Origin: a virus
DNA length: 30,236 nt
Virus record (IMG/VR): IMGVR_UViG_3300034198_012058
Location: 1-30,236 of that record
Reading direction: 5' to 3' (one strand)
Shown: positions 12,182-25,418 of the stretch, piece by piece
How positions within the stretch are numbered: the first letter of the stretch is position 1
Layout: each line of letters begins with the position of its first letter
Program-made: the position numbers and the translations under genes
The notes under the pieces: generated by a model
What the model saw: only the letters and a program-made list of their open reading frames with translations
Databases searched by the model: none
Told to the model about the DNA's origin: nothing

Positions 12182-12895
12182 ATGACTTTACCTAAAATTG
12201 GAATTCCTTCTCTTGAATTGAAATTGCCTTCTTCTGGAAAGGATATTAAATATAGACCTTTTCTCGTTAAAGAAGAAAAAATTCTTTTACTTGCATTGGA
12301 ATCTGAAGATGATGCTCAAATTACTAGTGCAGTCAAAGAGCTATTAAAAAATTGTGTTATTACTAGAATTAAGGTTGATGATCTTCCTTCATTTGATTTA
12401 GAATATTTGTTTTTGAAAATTAGAGCTGCTTCTGTGGGAGAAATTATCAATATGAAAGTTACGTGTCAAGATGATAACACTACTCAAGTTGATGTTGATA
12501 TTAATATAAATGATGTTCAAATTTATAAACCAGAGGGGCATACAAATAAAATTATGTTATCTGATGATACTGGTATTATTATGAAATATCCTAGTATGAA
12601 AAGATTTATAGAAGCCGAATTTTTAGGAAAAGATTTGAAAACTACTGAAGTTTTTGATTTTATTGCTGATCATATGGAACAAATTTTTGATAAAGATGTA
12701 GTATACGATTCAAGTACAACAACAAAAAAAGAATTTTTGGAATTTCTTGACACATTAACTATAAAACAATTTGAACAAGTACAAAAATTTTATGATACAA
12801 TGCCTAGATTAAAACATGAGTTTGAAGTTGTTAATCCAAACACTAATATAAAATCATCGTATACTATTGAGGGGCTTCAGAATTTTTTCGCATAG
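12182..12895 (+). CDS. 26: gp26-like baseplate/tail-assembly protein
   Basis: 237 aa (T4 gp26 is 208). Begins TLPKIGIPSLELKLPSSGKD, followed by IKYRPFLVKEEKILLLALES and a helical remainder; this is the signature of the T4 baseplate protein family (PF12322). The N-terminal 'P...L.LPS.G..i.yRPf.vkeEk.Ll.A' block is conserved in distant myophages. The 3' end holds the heptamer T TTT TTC seven bases before the stop and gives way to a gp51-like ORF in the -1 frame. Its place between the tube gene and the tape-measure-like gene is that of the G chaperone in lambda-like phages. Confidence 0.88.
   Translation: MTLPKIGIPSLELKLPSSGKDIKYRPFLVKEEKILLLALESEDDAQITSAVKELLKNCVITRIKVDDLPSFDLEYLFLKIRAASVGEIINMKVTCQDDNTTQVDVDININDVQIYKPEGHTNKIMLSDDTGIIMKYPSMKRFIEAEFLGKDLKTTEVFDFIADHMEQIFDKDVVYDSSTTTKKEFLEFLDTLTIKQFEQVQKFYDTMPRLKHEFEVVNPNTNIKSSYTIEGLQNFFA
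12883..12889 (+). other. Slippery heptamer T TTT TTC (-1 frameshift site)
   Basis: In the gp26 frame the codons are TTT (12884-12886) TTC (12887-12889), then GCA and TAG. Slipping back one base gives TTT TTT CGC and joins the gp51-like frame. X-XXY-YYZ with all T at X and Y is a classical -1 site. No strong downstream hairpin was found by eye. Confidence 0.75.
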
Positions 12896-13077
12896 CACTC
12901 TTTCAAAATAGTTTGGAAGGGTATTATAAAACTAATTTTGCTCTATTACAATATCATAAGTATTCTTTGACTGAAGTTGAAAATTTAATCCCTTGGGAAC
13001 GAGAAGTTTACATTGCTTTATTAAAACAATATTTACAAGAACAAGAAGCAAAACGGGAAGCAAATAATAAAAGATGA
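12889..13077 (+). CDS. 51: gp51-like extension reached by -1 frameshift (62 aa)
   Basis: After slippage at 12883-12889 the -1 frame adds 62 residues to 236 of gp26, giving a 298-aa fusion. The extension contains SLEGYYKTNFALLQYHKYSL and TEVENLIPWEREVYIALLKQ, a strongly conserved block that I know as a short 'baseplate hub assembly/gp51' protein after gp26 in T4-like marine phages. No ATG exists in this frame; the only alternative is a TTG at the SLEG position with no Shine-Dalgarno sequence. The stop overlaps the next ATG (ATGA at 13074-13077), coupling it to the tape-measure-like gene. Confidence 0.8.
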   Translation, partial: RIALFQNSLEGYYKTNFALLQYHKYSLTEVENLIPWEREVYIALLKQYLQEQEAKREANNKR

Positions 13078-16000
13078 AATCTTCCACACAGTTTAAACTA
13101 TCAAAAAGAATTAGATTAGCTGGGAAACTTTTTGGCTACAATACGGCTTTTAGTATATTTGGAGATAAAAAACTTGGTCAAGGAGCTTTTGGCACAGTAT
13201 ATTCTTCTAAGGGTAATGCTGTAAAAGTATCTCACTCACGAGGGTTACCGAGCCTAGAAAATGAAATACAAATGCTTCAAGAAACTAGTGGCATAGGAGT
13301 TGCTCCTAAGTTACTTGGATCTGGAAAAGGATTTGCTACGATGCAAAAATTTGAAGGCAAACCTCTTTCGGAATGGTTGAAGAAAATAAAAAATGATCCT
13401 GTTTTTGCTGATTATATTTTTAGAAAAATTGTAGAAGCAATTGGAGCTTTACATAGGAAAAATATTGCTCAACGAGATCTTCATGCTGGTAATATTTTTA
13501 TTACTAATGATTATCAAGTTAAAATTCTTGATTACGGACAAGCACGTAAAGGTTATGCAATAACTTTTTTTGAAACCTTTTTTGGAAATAACAATGATCC
13601 AACTGAAGGATCATTGGGATTAATTGCACATTTATTTACTGATACTAATTCATATAAAGTATATAAAAAAATATTAATAAATGCTATAAAAGTTATTTGT
13701 AAAAAGAAAGGAGTTGATTTCAATATTATATTACGAGGATATGAAGCTATTGAAGGTGACGATAAAAAAGAAAGAGAATATTTTGATAATTTAGAAATCA
13801 TAGCTCATCATGTTGAAAATGACTATACTGATGTTGGAAATTTTTATAGTGCTTTAGATAAAACACTCAAAATTAATACAAAAAATCCTAAAAAAATACG
13901 AACTATTGTACCTAAAACATCTATTGCATCTAAAACTTCTGGAATTGCTTCTTCTATTAATAAAAAGTATAGTTTCAAAGGTACTATTCCACAAGCATCA
14001 GAAGGAGGAGTATTCTCTGGTCCTGAATCTGGATATCCGATAATACTACATGGAACGGAGGCAGTAATTCCTCTGGACGATATTAACGTTCCTGCTGCAC
14101 GATATATTCAGGGGCAATCAGGAGTTTGGGAATTAGACTTTGAATCTATTTTAGATCACGCAATATATTTTGCAGGCAAATCTCCGTTTCCTAAAGGAGC
14201 AAAGCAAGCAGAAATATTAGATTGGCTTCAGGATACTTTAGGATTAACATACAAAGAAATTTCTGAGCATAGAGAAAAAATTCTCGATAAGATTAGAGAA
14301 CTAACTCCAGGAGCGTGGGAAGGAGGAAATTATCCTTATCTTAAAATTCCTAGGATAGATCCTAAGTTTGAAATGGAAGTCTACATGGGATCAGAAACTT
14401 CTGTATATAAACCTGGAGAAAAATTTGTAGATGATCAAAAAGAAATTTTTGATAATATTATTCATAAAGCAGAAGATGCTTTAGAAGAAACTTCTGATGG
14501 CATCATGGATGCTATTGATGAACTTCTTAGAAAAGACCAAGAAAAACTAGAAAAATTTAAAGAAGAAGAAGCAAAAAGACTAGAAGAAAGAATTAAAAAA
14601 ATTTATGAAACTGATGCTCAAGATGATGAAAACGAAGAAGAACCTGAAGGGCTTGATGAATTATTGAATGATATTGCTCAAGAAAAAACTACCGAAGAAA
14701 TCAATGAGGATGTTCTTGATGATTTGCCAGAAGGATTGCGAGAAGCTTTGGCAAATCACATCAATAAAAAAACTGGTAGGGAAGTTATACCACAACAAGA
14801 AAAAACTAACAAATCATCTTCAGTAAGTAATAGTAAAATATATAAATTTTTGACTACTGGAATAACACAGATACAAAATAAATTAAATTCTATAGATGCT
14901 TCTTTACAAGAACAAAATAATTTATTAAGGAATTCTATAGAGTTATCTTTTAAAGCAATTGAAAGAGTAGAAGAACAGGATCAAATTTTAGCGAACAAAA
15001 TTGATGCTTTAACTGATGCATATTTAAATCAAAATCACTTAGCAAAAGAAGTATATGATAAACAAGAATTTAAAAGAAATGAAACTGCATTGGAAAGATC
15101 AAGAAAAGTTTCTGGATTAGAAACTCCAATTGATACTAGAAATTTAAATAATTCTTCTAATGGTTCTGGTTTTATTAGTAAACTGAGAAAATTCTTTAAA
15201 ACTAATGTTGGTAAATTTTTGTGGCGTTTGATAGAAAAACATATACCAGCTAGATTAAAATCAGTTTTATTTGGAATTAATAAAATTGCTAAACTACCAT
15301 CAAAAATAGCATCTAAAATTTCTAGATCAATAATTAATAAAGCTTCTCAAAGATTAGCTCCAAAGGTAGCAACAACAGTAGCAAGAACAGGAGTAGTAAA
15401 GGGATGGGAACATATTGCATTACCTGGAGTAGAAAAATCAGTTGCTTCTTCTGTAGATAAACCAATAGCCAAAGCATTTTCTACTCAAACAGATAATATT
15501 TTAATTAAAATCTTAAAAAGTCGTAAGGTTCAGGAAGCATTAGTTAAAAAATTAGGAAAAGAAGGTGCAGAAAAACTATCTGTTAAACTAGCTGGTAAAT
15601 TAATTCCTGGAATTTCTACTGTTTATGGTCTTGGGGAAGGTCTTGCTCGTATGGCTATGGGTGATATTAAAGGAGGATTTTTATCTTTTGGTAGTGCGAT
15701 TCCAGTAGCTGGATGGGGATTTGCTGCGATTGATGTGCTTAGAGATTTAGATACTACAGCATACACAAAACATATTGAGTCTAATTTAAGTGATATTACT
15801 ACTGGAAATGGTAATGAACACATAGCAGCCTTCTTTGCCGATGCATTAGGAATAAAAGAAGGAGATTATGAAGTTGGTGGTCTTACTAAACCAGGAATAT
15901 CTATGCTTCATGGCACCGAAGCGGTTATTCCTAAGAATCGTACAACACCAGTTGATCCTATTGGAGGAATCTTATTATCAGCAACTCTCAATTACATGAA

Positions 16001-17696
16001 AAATGCTGGTCCAGAAGCAAGTTCTATAGCGCCAATGATAAAACAAGTGGCATCTCCTTTAACAAAAATATATGATGTTCCAAATGTAGTTGTTACTACT
16101 CCTGTTGGTGGAAATATGTCAGGATTATCTTCTACATTTAAACAATTCAAAACAAAAACTTCTACTGATGAATTATCTTTGGAAGAAAAAGATCTTATGA
16201 ATACTCCTAATGAAACTATATTTTCTGAGATGCTTTATAAAATGATAGATCCCGAAGGAAAATTTTTAAAAATAATTGATGATATTAAAACAAAATTTTT
16301 GAATTTTAGAAATCCTTTATTACCCCCTGGTCCCCCAGGACAAGTAGGTGCTGAACCGTTTGTATTGCTTGGTGGTAGTCAAGATCCTGGGCAAGCAGGA
16401 ATTGATTTTACTTTAAAAGGCACTCAAAATAGAGCAATTTTTGCTGGTACTGTGGTTGAAATTGATCATCAATATAATCCAAATGTAACGGGTGGGGATA
16501 ATAGGAAGGGTGCTGGGTATGGTAATTATGTTGTAATAAGATCCACAAATCCTGTTGATGGATCTCAAGTTGATATGTTATATGCACATTTCCCGCAAGG
16601 AGAAATAAAAGTTAATCAAGGAGATCAAGTATCAGTTGGTCAAGATCTTGGTAGAATGGCAACAGAACAAGAATTTGCTGATCCTAGAACTAGACCACAA
16701 GTTGGAAGTGGTACTGGTGCTCATACAAGTTTAGATTTTTTTAAACCAGGATCACACCAAGCACATTCGAAAGCAAGAGAAATTGGTGATTATATTTTAA
16801 AAGAACTTAGAAAAGGTCCTCAAGGTGAAATTGAAAAAACAAGGCAACAAGCATACCAAGCTCAACAAACAACTGCAAATAAATCATTACCAACTGCAAA
16901 AGGTCTTGGTAAACAAGGTGTCGTGAGCAATCAAGATTTTGGTCAAACTTCTGGGGTAGGAAATAAGGGTTATTTAATTGTTCCTGGTCATGCTTCTGGT
17001 GGTGGTGCTCCAGAAGAAAAATCTCTTGTAAGAATGTTGGCAAAAAATGCTTATGATAATTTAAAATCCAAATACCCTTCTGCAAATATTCAATATATGG
17101 ATCCAGATTCAATGTTTACTGATGATGATTCTGGTTGGAATAAACAAAAAGATTGGTACAAACAAAAAGAAAAAGAAGGGTGGGAAATTTTAGAAGTGCA
17201 TATGGATGCTTCTATTGAATCTGGTGAGGGAAAGGGTAGAGGAGTTATTACTTCTAAGTCTGAAATGAATCCTGTTGAAGCTTATTTTGCTAAAAATTAT
17301 GGAGCATATGATAGAGGATTTAGAGATCTTGCTTTGAGTAATAGAGGTGGAGGTATATTTGAATTGGGTAATATGTCTCCTGAATTACAAAAAAATGTAA
17401 AATCTAATAAAGTTTCTGCTGATCAATTAAATGCATTAACTGCTCCTCTTGAAAGATCTATTGCAGTTGGATTAAATTTACACCCTCCATCTCAAAAAAC
17501 TAAATTTCAAACTCTACAAGGACCTGATAAAAAGGAAGATACAAAATTTTTAATTATTAATCAAGCATCAGCTCCAACAATTAATGGTTCTACTTCAACT
17601 AGTTTTGAATCTATCGGAGATGGTTCTTGGAGATCCACTACTGAACTTAATTCTTCTGCTAGAAATTTACTTATGCTTCGTCTTGGTGCTAACTAA
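13074..17696 (+). CDS. Tape-measure-like tail protein with kinase-like and wall-hydrolase domains, 1540 aa
   Basis: Multi-domain protein. Residues about 30-260: protein-kinase-like domain with glycine loop GQGAFGTV (35-42), Lys51, Glu64, catalytic loop QRDLHAGN (Asp135, Asn140) and DYG (153-155). Around 309-336 and 936-953: the tape-measure motif form GGVFSGPESGY...LHGTEAVIPL and GGLTKPGISMLHGTEAVIPK. Middle: acidic coiled coil (470-560) and Gly/Ala-rich hydrophobic helices (840-890). About 1105-1225: M23-peptidase-like fold (GIDF, YAHF, GAHTSLDF), with zinc ligands partly replaced (Gln for His before GIDF; Ser for the last His). About 1300-1435: amidase_3-like domain with VPGH, EVHMDA and FELGNMS, ligands apparently kept. 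It follows the gp26/51 chaperone by an ATGA overlap. Likely central tail component delivering wall cleavage at infection. Confidence 0.75.
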   Translation: MKSSTQFKLSKRIRLAGKLFGYNTAFSIFGDKKLGQGAFGTVYSSKGNAVKVSHSRGLPSLENEIQMLQETSGIGVAPKLLGSGKGFATMQKFEGKPLSEWLKKIKNDPVFADYIFRKIVEAIGALHRKNIAQRDLHAGNIFITNDYQVKILDYGQARKGYAITFFETFFGNNNDPTEGSLGLIAHLFTDTNSYKVYKKILINAIKVICKKKGVDFNIILRGYEAIEGDDKKEREYFDNLEIIAHHVENDYTDVGNFYSALDKTLKINTKNPKKIRTIVPKTSIASKTSGIASSINKKYSFKGTIPQASEGGVFSGPESGYPIILHGTEAVIPLDDINVPAARYIQGQSGVWELDFESILDHAIYFAGKSPFPKGAKQAEILDWLQDTLGLTYKEISEHREKILDKIRELTPGAWEGGNYPYLKIPRIDPKFEMEVYMGSETSVYKPGEKFVDDQKEIFDNIIHKAEDALEETSDGIMDAIDELLRKDQEKLEKFKEEEAKRLEERIKKIYETDAQDDENEEEPEGLDELLNDIAQEKTTEEINEDVLDDLPEGLREALANHINKKTGREVIPQQEKTNKSSSVSNSKIYKFLTTGITQIQNKLNSIDASLQEQNNLLRNSIELSFKAIERVEEQDQILANKIDALTDAYLNQNHLAKEVYDKQEFKRNETALERSRKVSGLETPIDTRNLNNSSNGSGFISKLRKFFKTNVGKFLWRLIEKHIPARLKSVLFGINKIAKLPSKIASKISRSIINKASQRLAPKVATTVARTGVVKGWEHIALPGVEKSVASSVDKPIAKAFSTQTDNILIKILKSRKVQEALVKKLGKEGAEKLSVKLAGKLIPGISTVYGLGEGLARMAMGDIKGGFLSFGSAIPVAGWGFAAIDVLRDLDTTAYTKHIESNLSDITTGNGNEHIAAFFADALGIKEGDYEVGGLTKPGISMLHGTEAVIPKNRTTPVDPIGGILLSATLNYMKNAGPEASSIAPMIKQVASPLTKIYDVPNVVVTTPVGGNMSGLSSTFKQFKTKTSTDELSLEEKDLMNTPNETIFSEMLYKMIDPEGKFLKIIDDIKTKFLNFRNPLLPPGPPGQVGAEPFVLLGGSQDPGQAGIDFTLKGTQNRAIFAGTVVEIDHQYNPNVTGGDNRKGAGYGNYVVIRSTNPVDGSQVDMLYAHFPQGEIKVNQGDQVSVGQDLGRMATEQEFADPRTRPQVGSGTGAHTSLDFFKPGSHQAHSKAREIGDYILKELRKGPQGEIEKTRQQAYQAQQTTANKSLPTAKGLGKQGVVSNQDFGQTSGVGNKGYLIVPGHASGGGAPEEKSLVRMLAKNAYDNLKSKYPSANIQYMDPDSMFTDDDSGWNKQKDWYKQKEKEGWEILEVHMDASIESGEGKGRGVITSKSEMNPVEAYFAKNYGAYDRGFRDLALSNRGGGIFELGNMSPELQKNVKSNKVSADQLNALTAPLERSIAVGLNLHPPSQKTKFQTLQGPDKKEDTKFLIINQASAPTINGSTSTSFESIGDGSWRSTTELNSSARNLLMLRLGAN

Positions 17697-21719: not shown

Positions 21720-24700
21720 ATGGATCAAACATTAGCATCTCTATTTCCATTAAATCAAATAGGATCAGATGGTTTTAATTGGTGGATTGGGCAAGTAGAA
21801 ACAAAAAGAAATGGAGATCCAAAAAAAGCGGGTAGATATAAAGTAAGAATTGTAGGTCAGCATTTAAAAAATTGCGATGCAATGCCAACTAAAGATCTAC
21901 CATGGGCATCTACTATGATGCCAGTAACAACTCCTAGAAGTAGTTCAAATAGTACAGGAGCTTCTGTAAATTTAGATCAAGGTGATTGGGTAATTGGTTT
22001 TTATTTAGATAATGATAAACAAAAACCAATTATAATGGGATCCGTTGGGCATGTTCCTGGATCTACAACTATAATGAATGAAGACCCAAATCCTTCAGGT
22101 ACATGTAAATCTTTTACGAGGTATGCATCTGAAATAAATCCAGCAACAGATTTACCACAAAAAGAATCTAAAGGAAAAGCATCTGCTGATAACGGTCCTG
22201 GATATGAAGAAGGAACTAATATTTTAGGCGGAGATCCGATTGCATCTAGCAGAGCAGGAGAAGAAGGTGGCTGGCCCCCAGCATTAATGGCAGCCTTTGG
22301 GGAAAATTCCGAAACAAATCCCACTGGAGGAAAACTTTGTGTAGTTGTTGCTAATCCAAATTGTGGAACTGAAAAAAATTTAAAATCTTCGTTGACTCAT
22401 ATTATTGGAGATATGCTTCGAGCAAATCAACAATCTGGTGGACAACTTGGAGATTTTTATGTCAGTAAAGCTACTGGGTATTTGCAGGATCAAATATCAG
22501 TGGGAAGATATCATATCAATCGAGCTGTTAGACTAATTAGAAGTCTTATGGCTAGAGCTAAAGGAGAAATTATTAGTTTAATGAAAGAGGCTACCACAAA
22601 ATTAATTAATGCTACATTATATACAAAAGATACTTCTATAATTCCTGACGATATCAATAAGCCATTAACTACAGAAGAAAAAAATGCTTTAGAAGGAGCT
22701 AAAGAAGTATTGGCTATTGCAGAAGCAAATGGAGATACTGCTTCTGCTAAAGCTGCGTTAGAAGAATATGATCGTGTTGTTAAACAAATTAACGAAAGTA
22801 GAGGTCATCCTGGAGTAAAAAAAAGAAAGTCTAGAATCAAAGGCATACAAACATGGCTTGATAATATACTTAAAGAGCTTGGTTGTAAGATGGAAGATCT
22901 TACAGATCGATTAGCACAATGGCTAACTAATTTATTGCTTGGTTATATACAGAATGCTTTTAGTGCAGCTACATGTTTGGTAGATCAACTTGTAAATGGT
23001 ATATTAAATCAAATATTAGGTTATATTGATACTTTAATTAATGATATACTAGGTGGTGTTGAAATGTTATTGAGTGTAATAGCATCTCCATTAAACATTC
23101 TTGGAACCGCTCTTAAAAAAATAATGGATTTACTTGGTATTAGTTGTAGTGGTTCTGCACAATGCGAAAAAATTCAAATTACATGCACTGATTGTGCTAC
23201 ATCTGGAGATAATGAAGATGATCTTGATAAATTAATTAAAACAATTGAAGACGGAAATTTAGATTATAGTAGTGGTATATGTAATGATGCTAAAAAATAT
23301 CCATCGCAGTTGCCTACCGATATAATATTTGTTGGGGGAGTATATGAACCACCTGATAATCCAAATACATTACCAGATAATACAGATAATATTGCTACTG
23401 ATGAGGATAGATTTAATGGAACTACATTTGGAAGTATAAATTATTCTTCATCTGATATAGAAGTTTATGAAGGGGAGACAGCTGTATTTACAATTAAAAG
23501 ATCTGGATCTATAGATGTTGCAAGTAGTCTTAGATATAAAATAAATGAAGGCAATACTAATATAGGAGCAACTCTTAATCTTGATTATGAACCATTAGAA
23601 ACAAGTGGTATTATTGCTTTTGCTCCTGGAGAATCTAGCAAAACATTAGAATTTAATACTTTTATTGATAATTTAATAGAAGGTAATGAAATATTTGAAG
23701 TTGAATTGAATGAAGCATCAACACCTGATGGGCATTATGTGGTGTTTGAAACTACAAATTATTTAAGATGTACTATAAAAGATAACATTGAAGATAACAT
23801 TGAAAATAATGTTGTGGATGCAGAAAATCCTCCAATTATTAATACTCCTAATATTTCTTTGACGGAAATTTCTGGAAGTTCATCTCCAAATTCTCCAATA
23901 ATTGAACTCCCAACTTACAATGTTACCTCAAATAAAGAACAAGTTTTGGAAGGAGATAGTGTAGTATTTAATATAATAACTACAAATGTTTCCGATGGTA
24001 CAGTATTAAACTATACCTTATCTGGTATTAATATTACTAATTCCGATATTGTTGGTGGATCTTTGACTGGATCTTTTGTAATATCTTCTAATAGTTCCAC
24101 TGTTACGATTCAAATAGCAACTAATAATGATGGAAATACAGATGACGAAAGTTTAACTTTTAGCATAGATGACACTAATGCTAGTAAAACTGTTGTAATT
24201 AGTCAAACAATTTCTACATCTCCAACTTATAATGTAAATGCAGATAAAGTTTCTGTAAATGAAGGAGAAACTATTGTTTATACTATTACTACAACAAATG
24301 TTTCTGATGGCACAATATTAAATTATACTTTATCTGGGGAAAATATTACTCAAAGTGATATTTTTGGTGGTGTATTAAGCGGAACAGTTACAATTACATC
24401 TAATCAAGCTAAGGTAAGTGTTCAAATTAATCAAGATAATATTATAGAAATTTATTCAAAAATTTTAAAATTTTCTTTAGTGGATACAAATGTTTATGTG
24501 AATGTAGTAATAAATGCAGATCAAGTTTTTCCTGAGCAAAATGTAGTAAATGTTTTAGATAAAAGATATTCCATTTCTACAGATAAACTTTCTTACAAAG
24601 AAGGAGAAACTATAATTTACACTATTACAACAGAAAATGTTTCGGATGATACTATATTAACTTATAGATTGTATGGAGCTAATATAACTTCTTCTGATTT

Positions 24701-25418
24701 TATTTTGAATTCATTATATGGTCAATTTGTTATTAAAAATAATCAAGCAATAGTTCAAATTGGTATTGAAGAAGATACTGCAATTGAAAATAATGAAACT
24801 GTAACTTTTTCTATTGACAAAACAAATGCATTTGCTGATGTTATTATAGAAGGTACATTTGCTGATAAAGATAAAAAACCAGTTGAACCTTGTTTAAAAT
24901 CTCCTATAGCCACTGCTTTAACAGACGAAGATGGAAAAATTATAAGTATAAAAATTGATGATAAAGGATGCCCATATGTAGTTAAACCAGAAGTTATTAT
25001 TACTGGAGATGGATATGGAGCAGCAGCTATTCCATTACTTGATGATAAAGGATATGTTTCCGAAATAAGAATTACTAGAACAGGATTAAATTATAAAAAA
25101 AATGTGCCTACAAATTTGAATTGTATTATAGATTCTTTTACTATGATAAGACCAGGACAAAATTATACTTCAGAACCAACTGTTTATATTAATGGAGATC
25201 CTACTATAGCAACAGCTATAATTGAAGACGGTTTTGTTAAGGGCATAAATATTTTGGATAGAACAGTTAAATATAATAAGTTGCCATCGGTTGTAATTAT
25301 GGGTGGCGGTGGAATGGGAGCAAAATTTTTAGCAAGTTTAAGCTGTTTAGATTCGAAAGATTTGGAAGCAAAAGGATACGCTAAGATTGGTACAGGTAAA
25401 TATATTGATTGTCCGTAA
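21720..25418 (+). CDS. 5: gp5-like hub protein with OB fold and Calx-beta-like repeats, 1232 aa
   Basis: Residues about 18-115 form the gp5 OB-fold: NWWIGQVETKRNGDPKKAGR, YKVRIVGQH, LPWASTMMPVTTP, GDWVIGFYLDNDKQKPIIMG. A helical, partly hydrophobic region (about 215-480) and a Cys-rich stretch follow. About 573-655 is a Calx-beta domain (VYEGETAVFTIKRSG ... YEPLETSGIIAFAPGESSKT). Three related repeats begin near 730, 833 and 949, each with 'V.EGE...Y.I.T.NVSDGT.L.Y.L.G.NIT..D'. About 1055-1232 holds a second repeat type ending in Gly-rich loops. T4 gp5 (575 aa) carries lysozyme after the OB fold; no lysozyme motif is seen here, and hydrolase domains sit in the two upstream genes. Confidence 0.8.
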   Translation: MDQTLASLFPLNQIGSDGFNWWIGQVETKRNGDPKKAGRYKVRIVGQHLKNCDAMPTKDLPWASTMMPVTTPRSSSNSTGASVNLDQGDWVIGFYLDNDKQKPIIMGSVGHVPGSTTIMNEDPNPSGTCKSFTRYASEINPATDLPQKESKGKASADNGPGYEEGTNILGGDPIASSRAGEEGGWPPALMAAFGENSETNPTGGKLCVVVANPNCGTEKNLKSSLTHIIGDMLRANQQSGGQLGDFYVSKATGYLQDQISVGRYHINRAVRLIRSLMARAKGEIISLMKEATTKLINATLYTKDTSIIPDDINKPLTTEEKNALEGAKEVLAIAEANGDTASAKAALEEYDRVVKQINESRGHPGVKKRKSRIKGIQTWLDNILKELGCKMEDLTDRLAQWLTNLLLGYIQNAFSAATCLVDQLVNGILNQILGYIDTLINDILGGVEMLLSVIASPLNILGTALKKIMDLLGISCSGSAQCEKIQITCTDCATSGDNEDDLDKLIKTIEDGNLDYSSGICNDAKKYPSQLPTDIIFVGGVYEPPDNPNTLPDNTDNIATDEDRFNGTTFGSINYSSSDIEVYEGETAVFTIKRSGSIDVASSLRYKINEGNTNIGATLNLDYEPLETSGIIAFAPGESSKTLEFNTFIDNLIEGNEIFEVELNEASTPDGHYVVFETTNYLRCTIKDNIEDNIENNVVDAENPPIINTPNISLTEISGSSSPNSPIIELPTYNVTSNKEQVLEGDSVVFNIITTNVSDGTVLNYTLSGINITNSDIVGGSLTGSFVISSNSSTVTIQIATNNDGNTDDESLTFSIDDTNASKTVVISQTISTSPTYNVNADKVSVNEGETIVYTITTTNVSDGTILNYTLSGENITQSDIFGGVLSGTVTITSNQAKVSVQINQDNIIEIYSKILKFSLVDTNVYVNVVINADQVFPEQNVVNVLDKRYSISTDKLSYKEGETIIYTITTENVSDDTILTYRLYGANITSSDFILNSLYGQFVIKNNQAIVQIGIEEDTAIENNETVTFSIDKTNAFADVIIEGTFADKDKKPVEPCLKSPIATALTDEDGKIISIKIDDKGCPYVVKPEVIITGDGYGAAAIPLLDDKGYVSEIRITRTGLNYKKNVPTNLNCIIDSFTMIRPGQNYTSEPTVYINGDPTIATAIIEDGFVKGINILDRTVKYNKLPSVVIMGGGGMGAKFLASLSCLDSKDLEAKGYAKIGTGKYIDCP

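Follow-up and report, generated by a model that had tools for sequence, protein, structure and literature searches.

A predicted −1 frameshift would give short and long tail assembly chaperones from one gene in a viral genome fragment and its relatives

We analysed a 30,236-nucleotide stretch of DNA from a marine T4-like phage (IMG/VR record IMGVR_UViG_3300034198_012058, positions 1 to 30,236; hereafter the window) and conclude, with a probability of roughly nine in ten, that its gene 26 and the −1 reading frame overlapping the end of that gene form a single tail-assembly-chaperone gene, predicted to yield a short and a long form by a −1 slip of the ribosome. Hundreds of relatives very probably also make a short and a long tail-assembly helper from one gene by slippage. 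The sequence basis for this reading consists of a frameshift cassette, the conservation of that cassette, the coding character of the −1 frame, the absence of a start codon, and homology to T4 gp26 and gp51. Programmed −1 frameshifting is an established device of other tailed phages, and the initial annotation of the window had proposed that it extends gp26 in the manner of lambda G/GT. The proposal came through each of the sequence tests capable of contradicting it: the heptamer is conserved, there is no conserved start, the −1 frame is under purifying selection, a Shine-Dalgarno (SD)-like element and a hairpin are present, and each genome carries one gene of the family.

Results

A frameshift cassette at the end of gene 26

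Gene 26 matched PF12322 with E = 4.8e-68 (229.6 bits, against a curated cut-off of 24.5). Its last codons, CAG AAT TTT TTC GCA TAG, contain the proposed slippery sequence in frame (Table 1); earlier described as lying seven bases before the stop, the heptamer in fact has its first base 10 nt and its last base 3 nt ahead of the stop codon. No stop interrupts the −1 frame between 12871 and its end at 13077; it overlaps the gene 26 frame at 12871-12895, with the heptamer inside the overlap. It had been reported to be open and to lack an ATG; our scan of 12871-13077 agreed, extended the absence to GTG, and found TTG at 12913 and 12967 as the only candidate starts. A −1 slip at the heptamer would add 62 new residues and give a product of 298 aa, the length originally predicted. 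The window is AT-rich, and its + strand holds 11 copies of TTTTTTC, so the heptamer word taken alone is weak proof of slippage; the case rests on how the site is conserved and on codon choice.

Table 1. Features of the predicted frameshifting locus in the window
Feature	Position	Strand	Remarks
Gene 26, short tail-assembly-chaperone form (G / TAC-N)	12182-12895	+	237 aa; PF12322; phrog_150 positions 5-232
SD-like GAGG, probable frameshift stimulator	12869-12872	+	10 nt upstream of heptamer
Slippery heptamer T TTT TTC	12883-12889	+	0-frame codons TTT TTC; register X XXY YYZ
−1 frame extension (T-like domain)	12883-13077	+	62 new residues after FF; includes stop TGA
0-frame stop TAG, end of short form	12893-12895	+	
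Putative stimulatory hairpin	12897-12922	+	11-bp stem, 12897-12907 with 12912-12922; loop ATAG
Hairpin, outer 4 bp	12892-12895 with 12924-12927	+	
Next gene after chaperone	13074-17696	+	1540 aa; N-terminal kinase domain, M23 peptidase domain
0-frame C-terminal peptide of gene 26			SSYTIEGLQNFFA
Predicted junction peptide of −1 slip			SSYTIEGLQNFFR

The slippery site is conserved beyond the demands of the protein

We compared 115 loci taken from viral contigs and phage records, counting a heptamer wherever TTTTTT preceded a C, T or A in the gene's reading frame, 7 to 13 nt before the stop. Aligning the slippery site among relatives, a check that the initial annotation had suggested, revealed it in 112 of these loci, which come from cyanophages, pelagiphages, and phages of Aeromonas, Vibrio, Agrobacterium and Caulobacter. 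A related −1 frame continues past the stop in all 115 loci, with a few contigs ending inside it.

We then asked how often the slippery codons would be expected from each gene's own codon use, considering 67 loci with <75% identity, 62 of which encode Phe-Phe at this position. All 62 use slippery codons (a T-ending codon, then TTT), against 28.9 expected (log10 P = −24.4, a value that treats loci as independent). Stricter pruning gave the same picture: 33 of 33 (13.2 expected), 22 of 22 (8.4) and, at <45% identity, 15 of 15 (5.1). The residue ahead of the heptamer varies (N, S, D or A), and the heptamer outlasts an amino-acid change in L017 and L026, where the second Phe has become Leu and the codons read TTT TTA.

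The three loci without a perfect heptamer are L032, L119 and L120. The full heptamer is likewise missing from L135, L136 and L137 which, with L119 and L120, belong to the Ackermannviridae or their Vibrio relatives and share N NTT TT(C/T) or a similar sequence before the stop (G GCT TTC in L136). In these five (in L120, at 2701-2760) the −1 frame is present and the slippery site is reduced around TTY, with an additional TAATG at the stop in some. No ATG accompanies the stop in L120 and L135, and therefore a weaker slip is possible there; in L032, L119, L136 and L137, re-initiation at an ATG overlapping the stop is possible.

Elements flanking the heptamer

In the −1 frameshift of E. coli dnaX, an SD-like element lies upstream of the heptamer and a hairpin downstream, the arrangement that we find in the window; dnaX differs in its heptamer, A AAA AAG, and in that its shift yields the short product. 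Among the relatives, the Glu codon upstream of the heptamer is GAG at 35 of 42 Glu sites, compared to 12.8 expected from codon usage, and at 10 of 10 (2.8 expected) when identity is <50%.

The hairpin starts 7 nt downstream of the heptamer and has a predicted free energy of −11.6 kcal/mol. RNAalifold predicted no common structure for 22 divergent loci, as both the sequence and the register of the stem differ from lineage to lineage; we therefore folded sequences singly and compared each with synonymous shuffles that preserve the −1 protein and its codon use. The window's hairpin scored z = −4.05. Over 64 loci the mean z was −2.13, with 55% below −2, versus means of −0.5 to +0.1 and 3-14% below −2 at six control positions. 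The hairpin is absent or weak in Syn9, P-SSM7 and S-RIM8. In the window's subclade, pair counting gave 84% paired, versus 47-54% for slid versions; covariation evidence there is weak, since two-sided changes are few (3 pairs). Together, the GAGG, the heptamer, the hairpin and the open −1 frame amount, on sequence grounds, to a full −1 frameshift cassette.

The −1 frame is a conserved but inconsistently annotated coding region

The translated −1 frame matches phrog_634 (E = 5.6e-27) and phrog_150 positions 227-279; Pfam holds no family for it. Its structural model is helical (pLDDT 84.5), and a fold search with this domain returned nothing useful. We detected the domain in 574 phage records, and a slippage feature is annotated in none of those examined. 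Public records instead name the second gene 'baseplate hub assembly catalyst' and treat it as separate, or omit it (S-CAM1, Aeh1 and Syn2).

Those annotations express the most serious alternative, namely that the −1 frame is a small gp51-like gene of its own, translated from its own start or by re-initiation after the gp26 stop, which we consider improbable. An ATG does overlap the gp26 stop in several lineages (TAATG or TGATG), and re-initiation could operate there too, but the window's −1 frame offers no ATG or GTG, 36 of 67 loci have neither ATG nor GTG in the first 50 nt of the frame, and an SD-like sequence precedes the first start in just 1 of the 67. The annotated starts are also inconsistent, giving proteins of 31 to 47 aa in S-RIM8, HTVC008M, Syn9 and P-SSM7 and of 53 to 61 aa in others, and they truncate conserved sequence. 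Selection already acts upstream of them: directly after the stop and before the first common ATG, pN is 0.25 and pS 0.81 in the −1 frame, and the other two frames show no comparable purifying pattern over this stretch. Judging from these substitutions, purifying selection on the −1 frame sets in right at the stop, ahead of every start that could be used. A separate gene would moreover leave the slippery codons unexplained. The initial annotation had set a conserved heptamer against a conserved start for the second gene, and it is the heptamer that is conserved.

Much less probable still is that a conserved Phe-Phe pair and AT-rich codon use produced the slippery word incidentally, and that the −1 frame is a decayed remnant. 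The Phe residues are indeed conserved and the word is common in the window, but codon use accounts for fewer than half of the slippery codons observed, T4-type phages retain Phe at this place with codons that form no heptamer (GAG TTC TTT, GAA TTT GTT, AGT TTC CTT or CAA TTT TTA), and the pN and pS values are not those of a decaying frame. The six-T homopolymer at the join could also suggest one gene split by a sequencing or assembly error, an explanation that becomes scarcely credible when the identical junction recurs in 112 of 115 loci, including finished genomes of cultured phages. Internal start, chance and assembly error were thus all rejected, on the absence of starts, the codon and selection tests, and the recurrence of the junction, respectively.

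Relation to T4 gp26 and gp51

A short and a long form with a common N-terminal domain are encoded in both systems, through the predicted frameshift here and as gp26 and gp51 in T4. Along the 282 positions of phrog_150, gp26 covers 5-232, the −1 frame 227-279, and T4 gp51 13-280; T4 gp26 and gp51 both belong to PF12322, and the C-terminal end of T4 gp51 holds a domain resembling the −1 block. Because this coverage is colinear and both T4 proteins are PF12322 members, homology identifies T4 gp26 as the short form (G, TAC-N) and T4 gp51 as the whole long form (GT, TAC-NC). The earlier proposal that T4 gp26 and gp51 correspond to G and T therefore stands for gp26 and falls for gp51, which is a PF12322 protein with a T-like tail. 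For the same reason the 62-aa block, correctly recognized as conserved and gp51-like, should not bear the name gp51.

Gene content follows this division. We counted a single PF12322 gene per record in 18 records that have the one-gene layout, namely a 56-kb contig with an identical gp26 and 17 phage records, among which two Ackermannviridae do not have the full heptamer. T4, JSE, KP15 and Konradin have two each; there the long gene carries the T-like domain as an in-frame fusion, and the heptamer has been lost from the short gene. T4 thus resembles the window in having one protein homologous to the short form and another colinear with the long form, and differs in that the two are encoded by separate, divergent genes without a heptamer. 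In KP15 (L134, 2501-3795) the long and short chaperone genes lie adjacent on the same strand, a side-by-side pair that is possibly intermediate between a frameshifting gene and the divergent pair of T4.

Structure predictions and neighboring genes

AlphaFold2 modeled the short form with a pLDDT of 90. In a Foldseek search with this model, the top two probabilities among solved structures (0.57 and 0.44) went to chains of the HK97 tail assembly chaperone 2ob9, and 3fgx (0.33) was also among the highest-probability PDB matches, but all had E > 1 (1.7 to 3.8). A PDB sequence search with the gp26 profile returned no match to any solved structure, chaperones included.

The −1 frame had been said to end over the start of a tape-measure-like gene. 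The overlap is real, its stop TGA (13075-13077) and the next gene's ATG (13074) forming ATGA. The gene is not a proven tape measure, however: the domains recognizable in its product are a protein kinase at residues 32-170 (PF00069, E = 3.8e-11) and an M23 peptidase at residues 1107-1200. Among genes in the same place, those of S-CAM1, Syn9, P-SSM7 and S-8S56 contain no kinase or peptidase in Pfam, and that of P-HM1 has a VanY peptidase only; in HTVC008M and Cr30, an annotated tape measure follows the chaperone locus and one small gene. Elsewhere in the window, 21720-25418 encodes a large protein, probably of the baseplate or a spike, that has an N-terminal gp5-like OB domain and matches Calx-beta weakly.

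Discussion

From these observations we infer that slipping occurs, the rate at which it does so, and a chaperone function. Most ribosomes would halt at the TAG and release the 237-aa short form. A minority, delayed by the hairpin and perhaps also by pairing of rRNA with the GAGG, would move back by one base on T TTT TTC and make the 298-aa long form with its extra helical domain. If lambda G/GT is a guide, the short form may coat the tape measure protein, while the added domain of the long form may recruit tail tube subunits. Lambda G/GT, and TAC-N/TAC-NC pairs generally, share with the window a short protein with a −1 extension near the 3′ end, a single slippery site near the stop and an expected minor long form; the window differs in its long N-terminal part (237 aa) and in that the gene directly downstream, which encodes kinase and peptidase domains, is not a proven tape measure.

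Vladimirov et al. reportedly identified the tail chaperone genes of T4-like phages (Virology, 2022). Citing papers attribute to that work the finding that some T4-like phages have a longer fusion gene besides a short one (PMC10885494), as well as T-rich slippery sites in T4-like phages (PMC12846349), so the kind of mechanism is not new; what may be added here is the SD-like element, the hairpin and the breadth of conservation. The phage Adele locus (Vandenendeviridae/Andersonviridae), as described in the excerpt of PMC12846349, likewise has a T-rich slippery site (GTTTTT) and a conserved −1 frame misannotated as a hypothetical gene; it belongs to a different phage lineage, and the excerpt mentions no hairpin or SD-like element.

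On balance, we lean towards a joint history in which the whole T4-like tail chaperone family descends from a single frameshifting gene equipped with SD-like element, heptamer and hairpin, the essential T4 genes 26 and 51 arose by a duplication after which one copy lost the slip and makes only the short form while the other fused the frames and makes only the long, and slippage in the Ackermannviridae relies on a weaker site, N NTT TTY.

T4 assembly requires gp51, which is not part of the virion, and both gp26 and gp51 are listed among the hub assembly chaperones (PMC3004832). The relationships proposed here would give gp51, the T4 'hub assembly catalyst' that has long been a puzzle, a place in the general tail-chaperone mechanism, and they draw attention to a conserved coding stretch that is misannotated or overlooked in public cyanophage genomes. 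The family would also provide a natural series (frameshift, possible re-initiation and gene duplication) for studying how phages set the ratio of short to long form.
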